Assembly (NCBI GenBank): GCA_020847735.1
Contig: JADLBL010000001.1
Coordinates: forward strand, 62,001 to 126,000
Length of the DNA: 64,000 nucleotides
Direction: 5' to 3'
DNA from: Candidatus Eisenbacteria bacterium
Lineage (GTDB): Bacteria; Eisenbacteria; RBG-16-71-46
A model generated the notes under the pieces. The model was not told where the DNA came from. It ran no database searches and was given only the letters and a program-made list of their open reading frames with translations. Below are positions 12,062 to 20,186 of the stretch, one piece after another. The number at the start of each line of letters is the position of its first letter. Within the stretch, counting starts at the first letter, position 1. Made by a program: the position numbers and the translations under genes.

Positions 12062-12090
12062 TGGAGGCGCCGCGCGCGTTCGGGTAAATT
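12062..12090 (+). promoter_or_regulatory. Possible promoter of the uvrD-gat operon
   Basis: TGGAGG (12062-12067), 17 nt, TAAATT (12085-12090). The -35 box is poor and the -10 good. Transcription would start near 12097, giving a ~37-nt leader before the GTG at 12134. It would also rule out the TTG at 12089, which lies inside the -10 box. Confidence 0.4.
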
Positions 12091-12133
12091 GCGTGCTCCG
12101 TCCGACCTCCCCGACACCTTAAGAGGCGCCCGC

Positions 12134-14464
12134 GTGTCCGTGCCGCTCCCGAATCCCGAAGGGCTCAATCCCGCCCAGCGCGCGGCGGTGGAACACGACT
12201 CCGGCCCGGCGCTGGTCATCGCCGGAGCGGGTTCCGGCAAGACACGGGTGCTGACCGCGCGCATCGCGCGGCTGCTGGCGCGCGGCGTGCGGCCGGAGGC
12301 GGTGCTCGCGTTCACGTTCACCAACCGTGCGGCGCGCGAGATGCGCGAGCGCATCGAGCGCGCCGTCGGCGCGCTGGCCGGACGCCTGTGGATCGGAACG
12401 TTCCACGCCACCGCGGTGCGGCTGCTGCGCCGCGAGGCCGCGACCCTCGGACTTCCCGCCGCCTTCTCGATCTACGACCGCGAGGACCAGGAAGGCCTGC
12501 TGCGCGAGGCGCGGCGCGATCTCGGCCTCGACGACAGCGCCTACCGGGCGGGCGTCGTGCTGGCCCGCATCTCGGACTGCAAGAACGCGCTGGTCGGGCC
12601 CGAGCACGCCGAGCGCGCGGCGATGACGCCGTTCGATCGCAACGTCGCCGCGATCTTCGCGCGTTACCAGGCCGCGCTGCGTCGCGCCGGGGCGCTGGAC
12701 TTCGACGACCTGATCGCCGAGGCCGCCCGGCTGTTTCTCGAGCACCCGGAGGCCGGCGCGCGCTGGAGCCGCCGCTTCGAACACGTGCTGGTGGACGAGT
12801 ACCAGGACACGAACCACGCGCAGTTCCGGCTGGTGCAGGCGATCGCGTCCGCGCACGGGAACCTGTTCGTGGTCGGGGACGACGACCAGTCCATCTATGG
12901 CTGGCGCGGCGCGGATCTCAGCAACGTCCTCGAGTTCGAACGGGCCTTCCCCGGCGCGGTGACCCTGCGGCTGGAGCAGAACTACCGCTCGACCGGCAAC
13001 ATCCTGGCGGCCGCCAACGCGGTCATCGCCCACAACCGGGCGCGCAAGGGCAAGACCCTGTGGTGCGACCGGGAAGCGGGCGCGCGACTGCGTTTCGTGC
13101 TGTGCGCGGACGAGGCCGCCGAGGCGCGGCGCGTCCGCAGGCACCTCGAGGATCGCCGGAGAGCGGGCGGCCGGCTGGCCGACTGCGCGGTGCTGTACCG
13201 CACGAACGCGCAGTCGCGGGCGCTCGAAACCGAACTGCGGCACGCCGGACTCGCCTACGAGATCGTCGGCGGCGTTTCGTTCTACCAGCGGCGGGAGGTC
13301 AAGGACGTGCTGGCCTGGCTCCGGCTGGTCGTGAACCCGGCCGACACGGCGTCCTTCTTCCGCGTCTGGAACACGCCGCGCCGCGGCCTCGGCCCCGCCG
13401 TCCAGGGGCTGATCGAGTCCCGGCTCGCGCTCGGGGCGACGCCGGCCGCCGCGCTGCGCGCGCTGCGCGACGAGGGCGCGTTGCGCGGCGCCGCCCGCGC
13501 GGGGGCGACGCAGCTCGTGGATCTGCTCGACGAGTTGGGCGCGCTCCGCGAGGAGCCGCTCGGCGTGCTCTTCTCGCGGCTGCTGGAGCGCAGCGGCTAC
13601 CTCGGCCACCTCGAGGCCGCGAGCGACGGCGAGGAGGACCTGCGCGACCGCCTCGCGAACGTGCAGGAGCTGGCCGCGGCCGGAGCGCAGTTCTCGGAGG
13701 AGGGCCGCGGCGGATTGCTCGAATATCTCTCGGAGTGCTCGCTGCTGACGGACGCCGACCGTCTGGACGAGGCCGCCGACCGCGTGCTGTTGCTGACGGC
13801 GCACAACGCCAAGGGGCTCGAGTTCGCGAGCGTCGTCGTCGCGGGCCTGGAGGAGGGCCTGCTGCCGCACGCCTCGGCCCTGGACGACGACGGCGAACTC
13901 GAGGAGGAGCGGCGGCTGTTCTACGTGGCGCTGACGCGCGCCCGCGACCAGGTGCTGCTGACGGCCGCCTCGTTCCGGCGCCGGTTCGTGTCCGCCGAGA
14001 GCGGGGTTCCGGCGTGGGGCGCGCAGGTGTCGCGTTTCGTGGACGAAATCCCGGCGGAACTGCTGGAGCGCGAGGCCGACGGCCAGGGTTCCTGGGGAGG
14101 CGGGGATCGCGAGGCGCGCACGGCGCACCGGGCGCGCGCCGGCCTGCGACGCGGCGAAGCCCGGGGCGGCGCGGCCTCGCGCCGGGAGGGCGGGCGGTAC
14201 GACCCGCGCGAGGAGGCGGCGGACGCTTCGTTCGACTTCGACGACGGCGCCGGCGGACCTTCGTACGGAGTCACGGCGGCGCCGGTGCGGGGCGCCGCGG
14301 CGCGGCGGGCGGTCGGCCGGAGGGTGATGCACGAGCGGTTCGGCGCGGGGACCGTGCTGGAGGCCGAGGGCGAAGGCCCCGACATGAAGCTCACGGTGCG
14401 ATTCACCGGCTCGATCAAGAAGGTCCTGGCGCGCTTCGTGAGCGGGGTGGGCGATGACGATTGA
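12134..14464 (+). CDS. pcrA: UvrD/PcrA/Rep-family superfamily 1A DNA helicase
   Basis: An ATP-dependent 3'-5' DNA helicase (776 residues) for repair and replication restart. Q-motif LNPAQRAAV is followed by Walker A A30-GAGSGKT37, motif Ia TFTNRAAREM, motif II VDEYQDT (residues 220-226), motif III GDDDQSIYGWRGA and motif VI VALTRARDQ. A basic, low-complexity linker (about residues 655-700) leads to a C-terminal Tudor-like module (VMHERFGAGTVLEAEG) as in PcrA, where it contacts RNA polymerase. The GTG start at 12134 is chosen because AAGAGG lies 7 nt upstream and the N terminus then aligns with the family; a TTG at 12089 would overlap the -10 box. The stop overlaps gatC by 11 nt, which ties the helicase to the gat operon. 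Confidence 0.93.
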   Translation: MSVPLPNPEGLNPAQRAAVEHDSGPALVIAGAGSGKTRVLTARIARLLARGVRPEAVLAFTFTNRAAREMRERIERAVGALAGRLWIGTFHATAVRLLRREAATLGLPAAFSIYDREDQEGLLREARRDLGLDDSAYRAGVVLARISDCKNALVGPEHAERAAMTPFDRNVAAIFARYQAALRRAGALDFDDLIAEAARLFLEHPEAGARWSRRFEHVLVDEYQDTNHAQFRLVQAIASAHGNLFVVGDDDQSIYGWRGADLSNVLEFERAFPGAVTLRLEQNYRSTGNILAAANAVIAHNRARKGKTLWCDREAGARLRFVLCADEAAEARRVRRHLEDRRRAGGRLADCAVLYRTNAQSRALETELRHAGLAYEIVGGVSFYQRREVKDVLAWLRLVVNPADTASFFRVWNTPRRGLGPAVQGLIESRLALGATPAAALRALRDEGALRGAARAGATQLVDLLDELGALREEPLGVLFSRLLERSGYLGHLEAASDGEEDLRDRLANVQELAAAGAQFSEEGRGGLLEYLSECSLLTDADRLDEAADRVLLLTAHNAKGLEFASVVVAGLEEGLLPHASALDDDGELEEERRLFYVALTRARDQVLLTAASFRRRFVSAESGVPAWGAQVSRFVDEIPAELLEREADGQGSWGGGDREARTAHRARAGLRRGEARGGAASRREGGRYDPREEAADASFDFDDGAGGPSYGVTAAPVRGAAARRAVGRRVMHERFGAGTVLEAEGEGPDMKLTVRFTGSIKKVLARFVSGVGDDD

Positions 14465-14753
14465 CGCCTCCGAGGTCCGGCGCGTCGCCGCGCTCGCGAA
14501 GCTCGAACTCGCCGAAGGATCCCTCGAGCGCGTCGCCGGAGAACTCTCGAGCGTGCTCGAGTTCGCCGCGACGCTGAACGCGCTCGACCTCGCGGACTGC
14601 GAACCGGCGGCGTTCGCGCCCGCGGACGCGCCGCTTCGCGCCGACGCGCCCGACGGCCGGACGCTCGGCGCCGAGGACGTGCTGGCCGGCGCGCCCGAGA
14701 CCCGCGACGGCTGTTTCGTCGTGCCGCCGATCGTGGAGAACCTGAACCCGTGA
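14454..14753 (+). CDS. gatC: Aspartyl/glutamyl-tRNA amidotransferase subunit C
   Basis: The 99-residue GatC clamps GatA to GatB in the GatCAB complex, which converts misacylated Glu-tRNA(Gln) and Asp-tRNA(Asn) to Gln- and Asn-tRNA. It shows the family pattern: N-terminal EVRRVAALAKLEL, an ELSSVLEFAATLNALD helix, and the C-terminal hook ending FVVPPIVEN. Size is typical (about 95-100). It overlaps the helicase by 11 nt upstream and gatA by 4 nt downstream (GTGA), so the three subunits are translationally coupled. Confidence 0.95.
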   Translation: MTIDASEVRRVAALAKLELAEGSLERVAGELSSVLEFAATLNALDLADCEPAAFAPADAPLRADAPDGRTLGAEDVLAGAPETRDGCFVVPPIVENLNP

Positions 14754-16231
14754 CGGACCCTGGCCTCGCCTGGCGCGACTCGGCCGCACGGATCGCCGCG
14801 CAGGTGCGCGCCGGCGTGCTTGAGCCCGTGGCGGCGGCGGAGAGCGGCTGGGACGGCCCCGCGAAGCGCTGGGAGCGCGACGTTCACGCGGTCGTCCACT
14901 CGGATCCCGAGGCGCGCCACGCGGCGGCGAGCGCGGCTTCGCGCGAGGGTCCGCTCGCCGGCGTTCCGGTGCTGCTCAAGGACAATCTGTGCACCACCGA
15001 CTATCCGACCACCTGCGCGTCGCGCATCCTCGCCGGCTGGCACTCGCCCTACGACGCGACCGTGGTGCGGCGCCTGCGCGAAGCCGGAGCGGTGGTGGTC
15101 GGCAAAAGCAACATGGACGAGTTCGCGATGGGCTCCTCGACCGAGTTCAGCTGCTACGGACCGACGCGCAACCCGCACGACCTCGAGCGCGTGCCCGGCG
15201 GATCGAGCGGCGGCTCGGCGGCGGCGGTCGCCTACGGGCTCGTGCCGCTGGCCCTGGGCTCGGACACCGGCGGGTCGGTGCGCCAGCCGGCCGCGTTCTG
15301 CGGCGTCTACGGCCTCAAGCCCACCTACGGACGGTTGTCGCGCTACGGGCTCGTCGCCTTCGGCTCCTCGCTCGACCAGGTGGGAATCTTCGCGCGCCAC
15401 GCCGGCGACGTCGCGCTCGCCTACGCTGCGCTCGCGGGCGACGATCCCTTCGACGCGACGCTGCGCGAGGGCGCGCCTCCCGACGTGTCGGGATGGGACG
15501 GTGGCGTGCGCGGACTGCGCTTCGGATGGCCCGCCAACCTGTGGGCGCACGGCGTGGACGCGGCCGTGGTCGGCGCGCTGGAGCGCTCCGCCGGCGCGCT
15601 CGAGCGTTCGGGCGCGATGCGCGTCCCGATCGAGTTCCTGCCGGGAGAGTTCGGGGTCGCCGCCTACTACCTGATCGCCACCGCCGAGGCGAGCAGCAAC
15701 CTCGCCCGCTTCGACGGCGTGCGCTACGGCCGCAGGGCCGCGGGCGTGGAGGACGTGAACGCGCTGTACGCGCGCTCCCGGGGCGAAGGCTTCGGGCCCG
15801 AGGTCCAGCGGCGCATCCTGCTCGGGACGTACGCGCTCTCGTCCGGCTACTACGACGAGTATTACGCGAAGGCGCAGCGCGCGCGCACGCGCATCGTCCG
15901 CGAGTACGCGGCCGCGTTCGCGCGCTGCGACGTGATGCTGATGCCGGTCGCGCCCACCCCGGCCTTCCGGCTCGGCGAGAAGACCGACGACCCGCTGGCC
16001 ATGTACCTGAGCGACGTGTTCACGATCGGCGCCAATCTCGCCGGCCTGCCCGCGCTGGCGGTGCCGGCGGGCCGGTCGCCGGAGCGGCTGCCGGTCGCGG
16101 TCCAGCTGCTGGCGCCCGCCGACGGCGAGCCGCTGCTGCTGCGCGCCGCGCGGGCGATCGAGTCGGAGGGAGTCGAGGCGCGGATTCCGCGCGGCTTCGA
16201 ACCGGAGGTGGTATGGCCTGGGAGCCGGTGA
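14750..16231 (+). CDS. gatA: Aspartyl/glutamyl-tRNA amidotransferase subunit A (amidase)
   Basis: This 493-residue amidase-signature subunit releases ammonia from glutamine and passes it to GatB. The Ser-cisSer-Lys triad is visible: K77 in VLLKDN, S152 in GGSSGGS, and S176 in SDTGGSVRQPAAF. The catalytic core and the late FTIGANLAGLPALAVPAG region are complete, and length matches the family (about 485). The GTG start overlaps the gatC stop, and the end overlaps gatB by 19 nt. The operon order is gatC-gatA-gatB. Confidence 0.96.
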   Translation: MTDPGLAWRDSAARIAAQVRAGVLEPVAAAESGWDGPAKRWERDVHAVVHSDPEARHAAASAASREGPLAGVPVLLKDNLCTTDYPTTCASRILAGWHSPYDATVVRRLREAGAVVVGKSNMDEFAMGSSTEFSCYGPTRNPHDLERVPGGSSGGSAAAVAYGLVPLALGSDTGGSVRQPAAFCGVYGLKPTYGRLSRYGLVAFGSSLDQVGIFARHAGDVALAYAALAGDDPFDATLREGAPPDVSGWDGGVRGLRFGWPANLWAHGVDAAVVGALERSAGALERSGAMRVPIEFLPGEFGVAAYYLIATAEASSNLARFDGVRYGRRAAGVEDVNALYARSRGEGFGPEVQRRILLGTYALSSGYYDEYYAKAQRARTRIVREYAAAFARCDVMLMPVAPTPAFRLGEKTDDPLAMYLSDVFTIGANLAGLPALAVPAGRSPERLPVAVQLLAPADGEPLLLRAARAIESEGVEARIPRGFEPEVVWPGSR

Positions 16232-17670
16232 TCGGGCTCGAGTGCCACATCCAGCTCGCCACGCGCACGAAGATGTTCTGCGGCTGCCCGGTCGCTTTCG
16301 GGGAGGAGCCGAACACGAACGTCTGCCCGGTGTGCCTCGGCCTGCCCGGAGCGCTGCCGCGGCTGAACGCGGCCGCGGTGGACGACGCGCTCGCGCTCGG
16401 GCTCGCGCTCGGCTGCCGCATCCGGCCCGAGAGCGTGTTCGCGCGCAAGAACTACTTCTATCCCGACATGCCGAAGAACTACCAGATCACGCAGTACGAC
16501 CGGCCGCTGTGCGAAGGCGGCGCGCTGACGGTGGCGGGGGGCGACGGAGCGCGCGCGATCGCGCTCACCCGCATCCACTGCGAGGAGGACGCCGGCAAGT
16601 CGTTCCATCCCGAACGCCACGGGGACCTGCGCCTCTCGAAGGTGGAGTTCAACCGGGCCGGGACGCCCCTGCTCGAGCTGGTGACCGAGCCGGAGCTGGC
16701 GAGCGCCGGGGAATGCGCGGCGTTCCTGCTCGCCCTGCGCCGGCTGGTGCGCTGGCTCGGCGTGTCGGGCGGCGACATGGAGAAGGCGCAGCTCCGCTGC
16801 GACGCCAACGTCTCGCTGCGCAGGACGGGGACCGCCGGGCTGGGCGTCAAGACCGAGATCAAGAACCTCAACAGCATCAAGGCCGTCGAACGCGGCGTCG
16901 CCGCGGAGATCGCCCGCCAGTCGGCGCTGCTCGATCGCGGCGAGCCGGTGGTCCAGTCCACGCTGCTCTACGACGCCGACCACGATCGCCTGGCGGTCAT
17001 GCGCACGAAGGAGGACGCGCACGACTACCGGTACTTCCCCGAGCCCGACCTGCCGGTGCTGCGCGTGGACGAGCAGCGCCTGGCGGTCGCGAAGGCGGCG
17101 CTTCCCGAACTGCCGTGGGCACGCGAGGCGCGCTTCGCCGGGCAGTACGCGTTGCCGGCCTACGACGCCGGCGTGCTCACCGACTCGCGCGAACTCTCGG
17201 AGTACTTCGAGGCCTGCGCACGCGGCGCGGATGCCAAGCTCGCGAGCAACTGGATCATGGTCGAGGTGCTGCGCGTTCTGAAGGACCGCGGCTGGTCCGT
17301 GTCGCGCTGGGCCGATCGGGTGCCGCCCGGGCGGCTGCGCGACCTGCTGGCGAGAGTCGGAGCGAAGGATCTTCCCGGCCCGGTCGCCAAGCAGGTGTTC
17401 GCCTGGATGGCGGACGAGGACGGCACGGTGGACGCGCTGCTCGCCCGCCACGGCGTGCAGGTGCGGGCTTCCGCCGACGATCTCCGGCCGCTGGTGCGCG
17501 AGGTGCTCGACGCGCACCCGGAAGCCATCGCGCAGCTGCACGGCGGCAAGGCGGCGGCCTTCGGCTTCCTGGTCGGGCAGGTGATGAAGCGCAGCGGCGG
17601 GCAGGCGGTGCCGCAGACCGTCCAGGCGCTGCTGCGCGAGGAACTCGCCGCCCGCACCGGGAAGCCGTGA
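16213..17670 (+). CDS. gatB: Aspartyl/glutamyl-tRNA amidotransferase subunit B
   Basis: This 485-residue subunit binds the misacylated tRNA, phosphorylates the side-chain carboxylate and amidates it with ammonia from GatA. The N terminus (WEPVIGLECHIQL) is diagnostic. The zinc-binding cysteines are present (CGCP and CPVC), as are the kinase-like MPKNYQITQYD and RCDANVSLR segments and a C-terminal YqeY-like tail. The ATG at 16213 lies inside the end of gatA and has GGAGG 5 nt upstream, which decides the start. Length is typical (about 475-490). Confidence 0.96.
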   Translation: MAWEPVIGLECHIQLATRTKMFCGCPVAFGEEPNTNVCPVCLGLPGALPRLNAAAVDDALALGLALGCRIRPESVFARKNYFYPDMPKNYQITQYDRPLCEGGALTVAGGDGARAIALTRIHCEEDAGKSFHPERHGDLRLSKVEFNRAGTPLLELVTEPELASAGECAAFLLALRRLVRWLGVSGGDMEKAQLRCDANVSLRRTGTAGLGVKTEIKNLNSIKAVERGVAAEIARQSALLDRGEPVVQSTLLYDADHDRLAVMRTKEDAHDYRYFPEPDLPVLRVDEQRLAVAKAALPELPWAREARFAGQYALPAYDAGVLTDSRELSEYFEACARGADAKLASNWIMVEVLRVLKDRGWSVSRWADRVPPGRLRDLLARVGAKDLPGPVAKQVFAWMADEDGTVDALLARHGVQVRASADDLRPLVREVLDAHPEAIAQLHGGKAAAFGFLVGQVMKRSGGQAVPQTVQALLREELAARTGKP

Positions 17671-17671
17671 G

Positions 17672-18373
17672 ATGTCGTTTCGCGAGCGCGTGCGAAAGGC
17701 CCTCGCTTCGCCGCTCGGGGGACCGCTGGCGCGGCTCTTCGCCATTCCCGCCGTGACCGCGATCGTCGCCGACGCGCAGGGCTCCGGACTCGACCGGGTG
17801 GCGCTGTCCGAACTGTCGGCCGCGATGGCGGGCGTGGGAGTTCCGCCGGGCCGAACGTTCGTGCTCCTGTCCGGTGAACCGTCCGCGGACGCGCGCGAAC
17901 GTGCGCGCGCGCTGCGGGCGGAGCTCGGGTTGCCGGTGATGGCCCAGGATCCTTCGCACGCCGCGTTCGTGCCCGGCAGCCTCGCGGACGGCTCTCCGCT
18001 GGAGCTCGACGACGAGCTTCGTGAAGCGGAGGCGATCGTGGTGGTCGGGCGCATCGGCGCCGATTCCGCGGGCCGGCTGCGCGGCGGTCCCGCCGCGCTG
18101 CTTCCGGGGGTCGCATCGCGCGCGACGCGCGAGGCGCAGGCCGTGCGGCTCGCGGCCCGGGCGGACGCGGCCTCGCGCGCGAGCGCGGCGTGGCGTGAAG
18201 CGCTGGATGCGGCGAGCCTCGCACCGGTGGACTTCGCGCTCCTGTGGAACGACGCCGACCCGCCGGAAGTCCTGGCGGGCGAGGGCCCGGCGGTGTTCGC
18301 CGCCTGCGCGGACCGGTCCTGGCACCTGCCGTCGCCTGGCCGGCCGCGGGCTCGCGGGGCGGGCGGCGCTTGA
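17672..18373 (+). CDS. Degenerate LarA N-terminal-domain-like protein (DUF2088-like), possible pseudoenzyme
   Basis: A 233-residue protein of unknown role starting 1 nt after gatB. Its pattern follows the N-terminal half of the LarA (nickel pincer lactate racemase) family: ALASPLGGPL, then AIVADAQG where the family has a D-TRP strand, MAGVGVPPGRTFVLLSG, QDPSHAAFVPGSLADGSPLE, AEAIVVVGRIGAD and RGGPAALLPGVASRAT. The last matches the family's SGG-K-LLPG stretch. The cofactor-handling residues look replaced: the GTHR His, the EPH His and the SGG-K Lys are absent (SGEPS, GADSAG, RGGPAA). The C-terminal half is missing (LarA is about 425 residues). A catalytic role is therefore unlikely. The fold assignment is inference from pattern, not a search. 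The stop codon is part of the purD promoter. Confidence 0.5.
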   Translation: MSFRERVRKALASPLGGPLARLFAIPAVTAIVADAQGSGLDRVALSELSAAMAGVGVPPGRTFVLLSGEPSADARERARALRAELGLPVMAQDPSHAAFVPGSLADGSPLELDDELREAEAIVVVGRIGADSAGRLRGGPAALLPGVASRATREAQAVRLAARADAASRASAAWREALDAASLAPVDFALLWNDADPPEVLAGEGPAVFAACADRSWHLPSPGRPRARGAGGA

Positions 18374-18399
18374 ACTGCGCTCGCGCGGCTTCGTAGAGT
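18370..18399 (+). promoter_or_regulatory. purD promoter overlapping the upstream stop codon
   Basis: TTGAAC (18370-18375), 18 nt, TAGAGT (18394-18399). The TGA stop of the preceding gene (18371-18373) lies inside the -35 hexamer. The expected transcription start is near 18406, the GTG of purD itself, so the mRNA would be leaderless or nearly so. Confidence 0.65.
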
Positions 18400-18405
18400 C
18401 GGCGC

Positions 18406-19710
18406 GTGGAACCTTCGCGCATCCTCGTCGTCGGCTCCGGTGGCCGCGAGCACGCGCTCGCCTGGCGACTGGCGCAGGACGCTCACCGCCCCGAAGTCCT
18501 GATCGCGCCGGGCAACGACGGCGCGGGCCGCGCCTTCGAGCGGCTCGAGGTGCGCGAGACCGACGCCGCCGGGATCGTCGCGGCCTGTCGCGAGCGCGCG
18601 ATCGGACTCGTCGTCGTGGGACCGGAGTCGGCGCTCGCATCCGGGGTCGGCGATGCGCTCGAGGAGGCCGGTGTGCCGGTCTTCGGAGCCTCGCGCGCGG
18701 CCGCCCGGCTGGAGTCCAGCAAGTGGTTCGCGAAGGAGGTGCTGCGGGAGGCGGGAGTGCCCACCGCCGGCGCCGAATGCTGCGGCGACCTCGCGGCGGC
18801 GCGTGCGGCGCTGCACCGCTTCGGCGGCCCGCACGTGGTCAAGGCCGACGGCCTGGCGGCCGGCAAAGGGGTGCTCGTGACGCCCGACCCTGCGGCCGCC
18901 GAGCGTTTCGCGCGCGAGTGCCTCGAGGGCGGCGCGTTCGGTGCGAGCGGCAGCAGCGTCGTGATCGAAGAGTATCTCGCGGGCGAGGAAGCCTCGGTCA
19001 TCGCCGTCTGTGACGGCCGGCGCTTCGTGCTCCTGCCGGCGGCGCGCGACCACAAACGCGCGCACGACGGCGACCGGGGCCCGAACACGGGCGGCATGGG
19101 CGCCTACGCACCCATGCCCGCGGTCACCGCGGCGCTCGAATCCGCGATCGGCGAGCGCATTGTCGCGCCGGTGCTGCGCGCCATGGCGGCACGCGGCACG
19201 CCGTATCGCGGCGCCCTCTACTGTGGATTGATGCTGACTCCCGGGGGACCGAAGGTGATCGAGTTCAACGCCCGCTTCGGCGACCCCGAGACGCAGGCGG
19301 TCGTGCCGCTCCTCGCCGGCTCGTTCACGGGGCTGCTCGCCGGCGCGGCGCGCGGAACGCTCGATCCGGGCGCGATCTCACGGGCGGGTGGTGGCGCGGT
19401 GACCCTCGCGCTCGTGGACGAAGGCTACCCGGAAGCGGCTCGCGGAGGAGGCAGGATCGGCGGTCTCGATGCGCTCGCGGACCGGGAAGTGACGGTGTTC
19501 CACGCGGGCACGAGGTGGGAGGATGGCGGCTGGGTCGTGCGCGGCGGTCGCGCCGCCTACCTGACCGCGGCGCGGGGGACGATCGCGGAGGCGCGGGCCG
19601 CGGTCTACGCGGCATGTGCGACGCTGACAGGTTCGGGCTGGCGCTGTCGCTCCGACATCGCCGCAACGATCGCGGAGCCGGTGAGCCCCGCGGAGGGAAG
19701 GACAGCATGA
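18406..19710 (+). CDS. purD: Phosphoribosylamine-glycine ligase (GAR synthetase)
   Basis: The second step of purine synthesis: joins phosphoribosylamine and glycine with ATP to give GAR. The 434-residue protein has the N-terminal GSGGREHALAWRL loop, GPESALASG, the ATP-grasp KADGLAAGKGV loop, DHKRAHDGDRGPNTGGMGAYAP, and the Mg-binding EFNARFGDPETQ. Length is typical (about 425-430). The GTG start sits where transcription should begin, with no obvious Shine-Dalgarno sequence upstream. The stop overlaps the purE ATG (ATGA), so these two purine genes are coupled. Confidence 0.95.
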   Translation: MEPSRILVVGSGGREHALAWRLAQDAHRPEVLIAPGNDGAGRAFERLEVRETDAAGIVAACRERAIGLVVVGPESALASGVGDALEEAGVPVFGASRAAARLESSKWFAKEVLREAGVPTAGAECCGDLAAARAALHRFGGPHVVKADGLAAGKGVLVTPDPAAAERFARECLEGGAFGASGSSVVIEEYLAGEEASVIAVCDGRRFVLLPAARDHKRAHDGDRGPNTGGMGAYAPMPAVTAALESAIGERIVAPVLRAMAARGTPYRGALYCGLMLTPGGPKVIEFNARFGDPETQAVVPLLAGSFTGLLAGAARGTLDPGAISRAGGGAVTLALVDEGYPEAARGGGRIGGLDALADREVTVFHAGTRWEDGGWVVRGGRAAYLTAARGTIAEARAAVYAACATLTGSGWRCRSDIAATIAEPVSPAEGRTA

Positions 19711-20186
19711 AACGGACGAAGGCGCGGGTCGGGATCGTCATGGGCAGCGAATCGGACCGGCCCGTGATGGAGGAGGCGGCCAGGGTGTGCGCGGACTTCG
19801 GCGTCCACTGCGAGGTCGTGGTCCGCTCCGCGCACCGCACGCCGGAGGCGGCGGCGAAGTGGGCGCGCACCGCGAAAGGGCGGGGTCTCGAGGTGATCAT
19901 CGCCGGAGCCGGCGGCGCCGCTCATCTGGCGGGGGCGATGGCGGCGCACAGCCGCCTGCCCGTCCTCGGGGTTCCGCTCGCCAGCTCGCCTCTCGGCGGC
20001 TTCGACGCGCTGCTCTCGACCGTGCAGATGCCGCCGGGCGTGCCGGTCGGCACCCTCGGGGTCGGATCGTGGGGCGCGCGCAACGCCGCGCACCTGGCGC
20101 TGCGAATCCTGGCGCTCGGCGACGCCGCCCTGGCGCGTCGGCTCGAGGACGTCGCGGCGGCCATGGCCGGCGGACGGCGGCGCTGA
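19707..20186 (+). CDS. purE: N5-carboxyaminoimidazole ribonucleotide mutase, PurE class I
   Basis: Moves the carboxyl group of N5-CAIR to C4 of the ring to give CAIR. The 159-residue protein has the active-site set [22 protein letters not shown] and [18 protein letters not shown], followed by [11 protein letters not shown]. Length and the SAHRTP histidine fit class I PurE, which normally needs PurK to make N5-CAIR; no purK lies in this window. The start overlaps the purD stop (ATGA). Confidence 0.95.

Follow-up and report, generated by a model that had tools for sequence, protein, structure and literature searches.

Introduction

In LarA, a racemase that depends on a nickel-pincer cofactor, D72, H108, H174 and K298 are described as catalytic and R75, K184 and H200 as contacting the cofactor, and the N-domain spans residues 30-265 (PMC7583248). 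The same report (Desguin 2020) describes LarA homolog groups 12, 13 and 16 as being without conserved catalytic and cofactor residues. According to a further report, larB, larE and larC occur without larA in about 15% of the genomes analysed, and unknown cofactor-binding proteins were suggested (PMC11796402).

Here we analysed a stretch of 64,000 nucleotides from a Candidatus Eisenbacteria bacterium (contig JADLBL010000001.1, positions 62,001 to 126,000), referred to as the window. It contains a gene of 233 codons (17672..18373, plus strand), referred to as the solo gene, whose product corresponds to the N-domain of LarA. We consider it probable that this product is a LarA-derived, cofactor-free pseudoenzyme that has been kept as a non-catalytic binding module.

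Results

The solo protein is homologous to the N-domain of LarA

The solo gene is an open reading frame running from ATG to TGA, and it was assigned from profile matches and from the predicted fold of its product. The NCBIfam model for LarAH6 malate racemase matched the solo protein with an E-value of 1.7e-9, at a score far below the model's full-length cut-off. Pfam Lar_N matched it with an E-value of 2e-4 and 21.0 bits, just missing the gathering cut-off of 23.3 bits, which the ortholog in genome G003 clears (25.8 bits). At E ≤ 0.1, eight of the nine solo orthologs were matched by the LarAH6 model and five by Lar_N. A search of the PDB found the malate racemase Mar2 (E 0.009). Homology of the solo protein to the LarA N-domain is confirmed as above chance. 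The LarA C-domain (PF21113) had no match anywhere in the window's own genome, and the reading frame ends after the N-domain.

We predicted the structure of the solo protein with AlphaFold2 from a nine-row alignment, and obtained a model with a pLDDT of 86.8 and a pTM of 0.85 (the worst of the five models had a pLDDT of 49.6). Foldseek returned 18 matches at E ≤ 0.001, every one a LarA-family chain, and the same was found for the model of the G018 ortholog (pLDDT 86.3, 18 of 18 matches). In VIA-align, the twelve best entries belonged to the LarA family with Z from 22.6 to 15.4, while the next entry had a Z of 7.8; one of the twelve, 4nar, is GntE2 (PMC7583248). Methyltransferases, eIF2B and universal stress proteins also appeared, all below Z 8, and were disregarded as fold relatives. 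Residues 1-232 of the model align with LarA residues 37-280, which is the whole N-domain.

An earlier reading of the DNA by a model working from the letters, the first-pass annotation, had described a 233-residue product following the order of the N-terminal half of LarA, with the second domain absent. Both points agree with the reading frame, the LarAH6 and Lar_N matches and a model that spans the N-domain only, and the structure prediction and structural search that it proposed as a check returned the LarA fold. Its statement that the product ends at RGGPAALLPGVASRAT was incorrect: about 80 more residues follow and complete the N-domain.

A search of genome contigs with the window's protein alone gave no locus. 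With the solo alignment, a search of contigs from named genomes identified eight ortholog loci, all in Candidatus Eisenbacteria; this search relied on one peptide pattern and would miss solo forms without that motif. As to a viral origin, no relative was found in IMG/VR with the one peptide pattern used, and as to a defence function, PADLOC gave nothing for the solo protein at E ≤ 1.

Cofactor residues are lost and conservation has shifted

We compared six active-site positions by alignment. R75, H108 and K184 are replaced in all nine solo orthologs, with A, C, F or T at the K184 position, where the cofactor is attached. Neither H174 nor H200 is present in any of the nine: eight solos have other residues there, and the ninth, G005, has a gap at H174 and is cut off by the end of its contig ahead of H200. 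Alignment is uncertain in the loops that contain the H108 and H200 columns, and the residue facing H108 in the window's protein is E in one alignment and S in another; neither alignment puts a histidine in either column. In the window's protein, the equivalent of the acid/base residue H174 is D131 (18062..18064, plus strand) and that of K184, which forms the cofactor thioamide, is A141 (18092..18094, plus strand). The first-pass annotation held that every residue binding substrate, nickel or the pincer cofactor had been replaced. This is borne out for R75, H108, H174, K184 and H200, but not for catalytic D72, whose equivalent D34 (17771..17773, plus strand) is D in eight of the nine orthologs and E in G019.

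We then looked at the mean column identity of four of the five catalytic loops, namely those following D72, surrounding H108 and H174, and at H200. In the solos, identity was 0.26 in these loops versus 0.50 elsewhere (Mann-Whitney, p 9e-5), while in 14 LarAs whose sites are intact or nearly so it was 0.55 versus 0.29 (p 5e-4). The solos are closer kin than the LarAs, so that identity levels are comparable only as a contrast inside each set; the 14 LarAs include two with one altered position (G034 contig 2 at K298 and G058 at D72), and the loop around K184 is counted with the rest. This GG..PG loop is conserved in both sets (0.65 in solos, 0.71 in LarAs), and the strand 99-112 departs from the trend (0.37 and 0.41). 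Relative to the rest of the protein, identity in the four loops is low in the solos and high in the LarAs, and constraint has therefore moved out of most of the old catalytic site. In the solos it lies in the N-terminal helix, in the VLVHDP segment and in LDDELREAEAIV. The second of these reads VMAQDP in the window (17936..17953, plus strand) and V(L/V)xHDP in all other orthologs but one, and LDDELREAEAIV (18005..18040, plus strand) is the most conserved stretch of the family. Because the K184 loop is conserved and D72 is retained, some function of the pocket could survive.

This pattern bears on the possibility that the solo protein is a new enzyme, which would have kept the fold and D34 and built another active site, for example around D93, D113, E118 and E120, for chemistry unrelated to nickel. 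These acidic residues are invariant in all nine orthologs, which together with the retained D72 equivalent would fit such an enzyme. However, the segment LDDELREAEA aligns with (V/L)NRxVxEAD of LarA and its conservation may be partly structural, and the other loops of the old pocket vary freely. We regard a new enzyme as unlikely.

Intact, residue-less and solo forms occupy one chromosomal slot

In the window, the solo gene is preceded by genes named by eye from their sequence as a uvrD-like helicase (12089..14464), gatC (14454..14753) and gatA (14750..16231), and by gatB (16228..17670), whose stop lies 1 nt ahead of the solo start. It is followed, 32 nt past its stop, by purD (18406..19710) and then purE (19707..20186). 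All of these genes are on the plus strand, with uvrD and purD forming the left and right borders of the slot. A scan of 14300-19900 for terminators and promoters found a single terminator-like site, on the minus strand, and none resembling a promoter; neither count exceeds that in shuffled sequences.

We inspected the region behind gatB, or the surroundings of LarA, in 47 genomes of the class, and found a conserved slot with the order uvrD-(gatCAB)-X-purD-purE. The slot holds a solo gene in nine genomes (the window's own genome G000, G001-G005, G015, G018 and G019), a full-length LarA in nine, nothing in 18 and a probable remnant in one; it is rearranged in two (G007, G014) and runs into a contig end in three (G006, G008, G011), and gatB was not found in five (G025, G031, G036, G042, G045). 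The full-length LarA stands behind gatB in G020, G021, G024, G028 and G029, and behind uvrD with no gat between in G026, G032, G034 and G040. It is followed by purD in all nine except G040, where none was seen and the assignment rests on the uvrD side only. In the 18 empty slots gatB is followed by purD, with 8-245 nt between the BLAST hits (in G039, 49 nt with a purD hit starting at residue 60). In G013 (L064), a gatB-purD gap of 395 nt contains a weak, broken solo match of 13.6 bits, compared with 7.9 bits for the best of 1932 windows outside the gap. The gap probably holds a broken remnant of the solo gene. G013 shows that the solo gene can decay and is dispensable in at least one genus.

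Two further observations concern the arrangement of the slot. G026 and G032 (L119, L120) have the order uvrD-LarA-purD-purE without gat, which suggests that one and the same operon has gained or lost gatCAB in different families. In G021 (L083), the LarA behind gatB is divided between two frames and gatB has an internal stop, which may reflect an assembly error or a real frameshift.

In eight of the nine full-length slot LarAs, each of the eight positions inspected is intact; this residue comparison did not include two LarA loci, in G025 and on contig 72 of G024, for which the motif used gave no reading frame. The exception is G020 (L023 5157-6524, minus strand), from the window's order and another family. 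Its protein is full-length with both domains and keeps D72 and Q295, and R75, H108, H174, K184, H200 and K298 are lost. Judged by these residues, it would be an intermediate stage, a full-length but residue-less LarA-like protein. G020 joins the solos in a tree of the N-domain, computed without the two partial solos G003 and G005, with a support (82/92) that is not decisive. A tree of GatB unites eight of the solo genomes in a clade (100/99), places G005 next (60/81) and puts G013 just outside. The comparison shows that the solo protein descends from LarA, that the forms at the slot make an in-place series, and that both residues and a domain have been lost. The solo protein looks like a LarA that has been stripped in place.

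The solo gene is under purifying selection

For the pair G018/G019, the solo gene had an omega of 0.090 under a maximum-likelihood codon model (omega 1 rejected with 2dlnL 108.6), similar to gatC (0.097) and about twice that of gatB (0.047), with uvrD at 0.076 and gatA at 0.047. Counting methods gave 0.19 for the solo gene and gatC, 0.12 for gatB and 0.11 for gatA. In no other pair is the divergence low enough for omega to be reasonably free of saturation, and t is 1.18 even here; distant pairs were saturated (t up to 1e7), and for these the likelihood ratios were used and the omega values discarded. An omega of 1 was rejected in all six solo pairs tested (2dlnL 51.6-108.6), and none of the nine reading frames has a stop codon. 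These results show purifying selection on the solo gene.

The first-pass annotation had suggested that the gene is kept for a reason, had named a sensor, a scaffold or a decaying gene as possibilities, and had proposed conservation and dN/dS across relatives as a check. The low omega in the closest pair supports a gene that is kept, and decay of the solo lineage was rejected by both the codon model and the counting methods. A dying gene that is leaving the slot and is expressed without function would be consistent with the probable remnant in G013, with the slot being empty in five other genomes of the family and with an omega about twice that of gatB. However, an omega of 0.09, the rejection of omega 1 in every pair, the nine open frames and the preserved coupling to gatB make this reading quite improbable for the solo lineage, the remnant in G013 notwithstanding.

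The position behind gatB is inherited from LarA

In all eight orthologs with a readable start, the solo gene overlaps the gatB stop (GTGA) or starts 1-17 nt after it. This would fit a protein that acts with the GatCAB amidotransferase or regulates it, and whose synthesis is tied to that of GatB by translational coupling. However, full-length LarA is equally tight behind gatB, with the two genes overlapping by 4 nt in both G024 and G029 and spaced by 0 nt in G028 and 16 nt in G020, and in G026, G032 and G034 LarA occupies the slot without gat. The coupling to gatB is therefore inherited and does not single out GatCAB, and a GatCAB partner is very unlikely. The first-pass annotation had taken co-transcription with gatB as a sign that the gene is kept for a reason. 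The gene is indeed kept, as its omega indicates, but the adjacency says little about a partnership, as intact LarA occupies the slot even without gat.

The nickel-pincer pathway is present in most solo genomes

We searched for the genes of the cofactor pathway. In the window's own genome, LarB (283.8 bits), LarC (426 bits) and TIGR00268 (298 bits), which we take to be the LarE model, are all over cut-off; the matches lie on contig 15 at 220948-222072, 222105-222728 and 174462-175235. The same genome has no Lar_N match over cut-off and no match to the LarA C-domain, and no canonical LarA was found in it. LarB and LarC are over cut-off in seven of the nine solo genomes and TIGR00268 in six, and G001, which is 93% complete, has the solo gene with none of the three over cut-off. 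Among the 59 genomes searched, LarC is over cut-off in 42, of which 31 have no Lar_N over cut-off. The presence of the pathway in the window's genome without another Lar_N or LarA C-domain match would suit an accessory of the nickel-pincer nucleotide, acting as a non-covalent carrier or sink, but the cofactor-contacting residues are lost, G001 lacks matches over cut-off to all three pathway genes and LarC occurs in many relatives that have neither a solo gene nor LarA, and this role is therefore rated as highly improbable.

Discussion

Our results favour the reading of the solo protein as a cofactor-free pseudoenzyme derived from LarA. The ancestral state in the phylum would have been a nickel-pincer-dependent LarA racemase gene with uvrD, or uvrD-gatCAB, on its left and purD-purE on its right. 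Loss of the cofactor and acid/base residues may have come first, in the window's order, and may have been followed in the window's lineage by loss of the C-domain, so that the N-terminal Rossmann-like domain remained alone, in its complete form. The gene would subsequently have been lost, once or several times, in some genera. This is the simplest history. The solo protein would have no racemase activity and would not bind the nickel-pincer nucleotide in the manner of LarA. Binding would instead involve the newly conserved segments, namely N-terminal FRxxVRxAL, VLVHDP and LDDELREAEAIV. Of the roles named in the first-pass annotation, a sensor or a scaffold is conceivable; we favour non-catalytic binding.

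As a rule, pseudoenzymes are identified with no record of how they arose. In this case, positional orthology shows, at a single locus, the loss of cofactor residues and then of a domain under continuing selection. The solo genes may represent a new family restricted to the phylum, in which a racemase was converted in place to a cofactor-free, single-domain binding protein and the stages (intact LarA, residue-less LarA, N-domain, remnant and nothing) can be read at one slot, with some host genomes still making the cofactor and no canonical LarA found; we put the chances of this at about even. In the literature searched, the coverage of which was incomplete, a cofactor-free LarA consisting of one domain was not described. 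With larB, larE and larC and no larA found, the window's genome belongs to the kind noted earlier (PMC11796402), and the only LarA relative found in it would be unable to hold the cofactor in the LarA way.

The solo protein and LarA have in common the fold, the full extent of the N-domain, the order of the motifs, the D72 position and the GG..PG loop, and the solo gene shares its chromosomal slot with the intact LarA of the phylum. In contrast to LarA, the solo protein has no C-domain and none of R75, H108, H174, K184 and H200, and the window's protein scores below the Lar_N gathering cut-off. Within the LarA family (PF09861 plus PF21113), it is closest in sequence to Mar2/LarAH6. Homolog groups 12, 13 and 16 are, like the solo protein, LarA-like without cofactor residues, a likeness drawn from their description (PMC7583248). 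The single-histidine LarA homologs (9q3j, 9q3k) share the fold and also have an altered active site, but as described they lose just one histidine and, unlike the solo protein, keep cofactor binding and both domains (PMC12611868).
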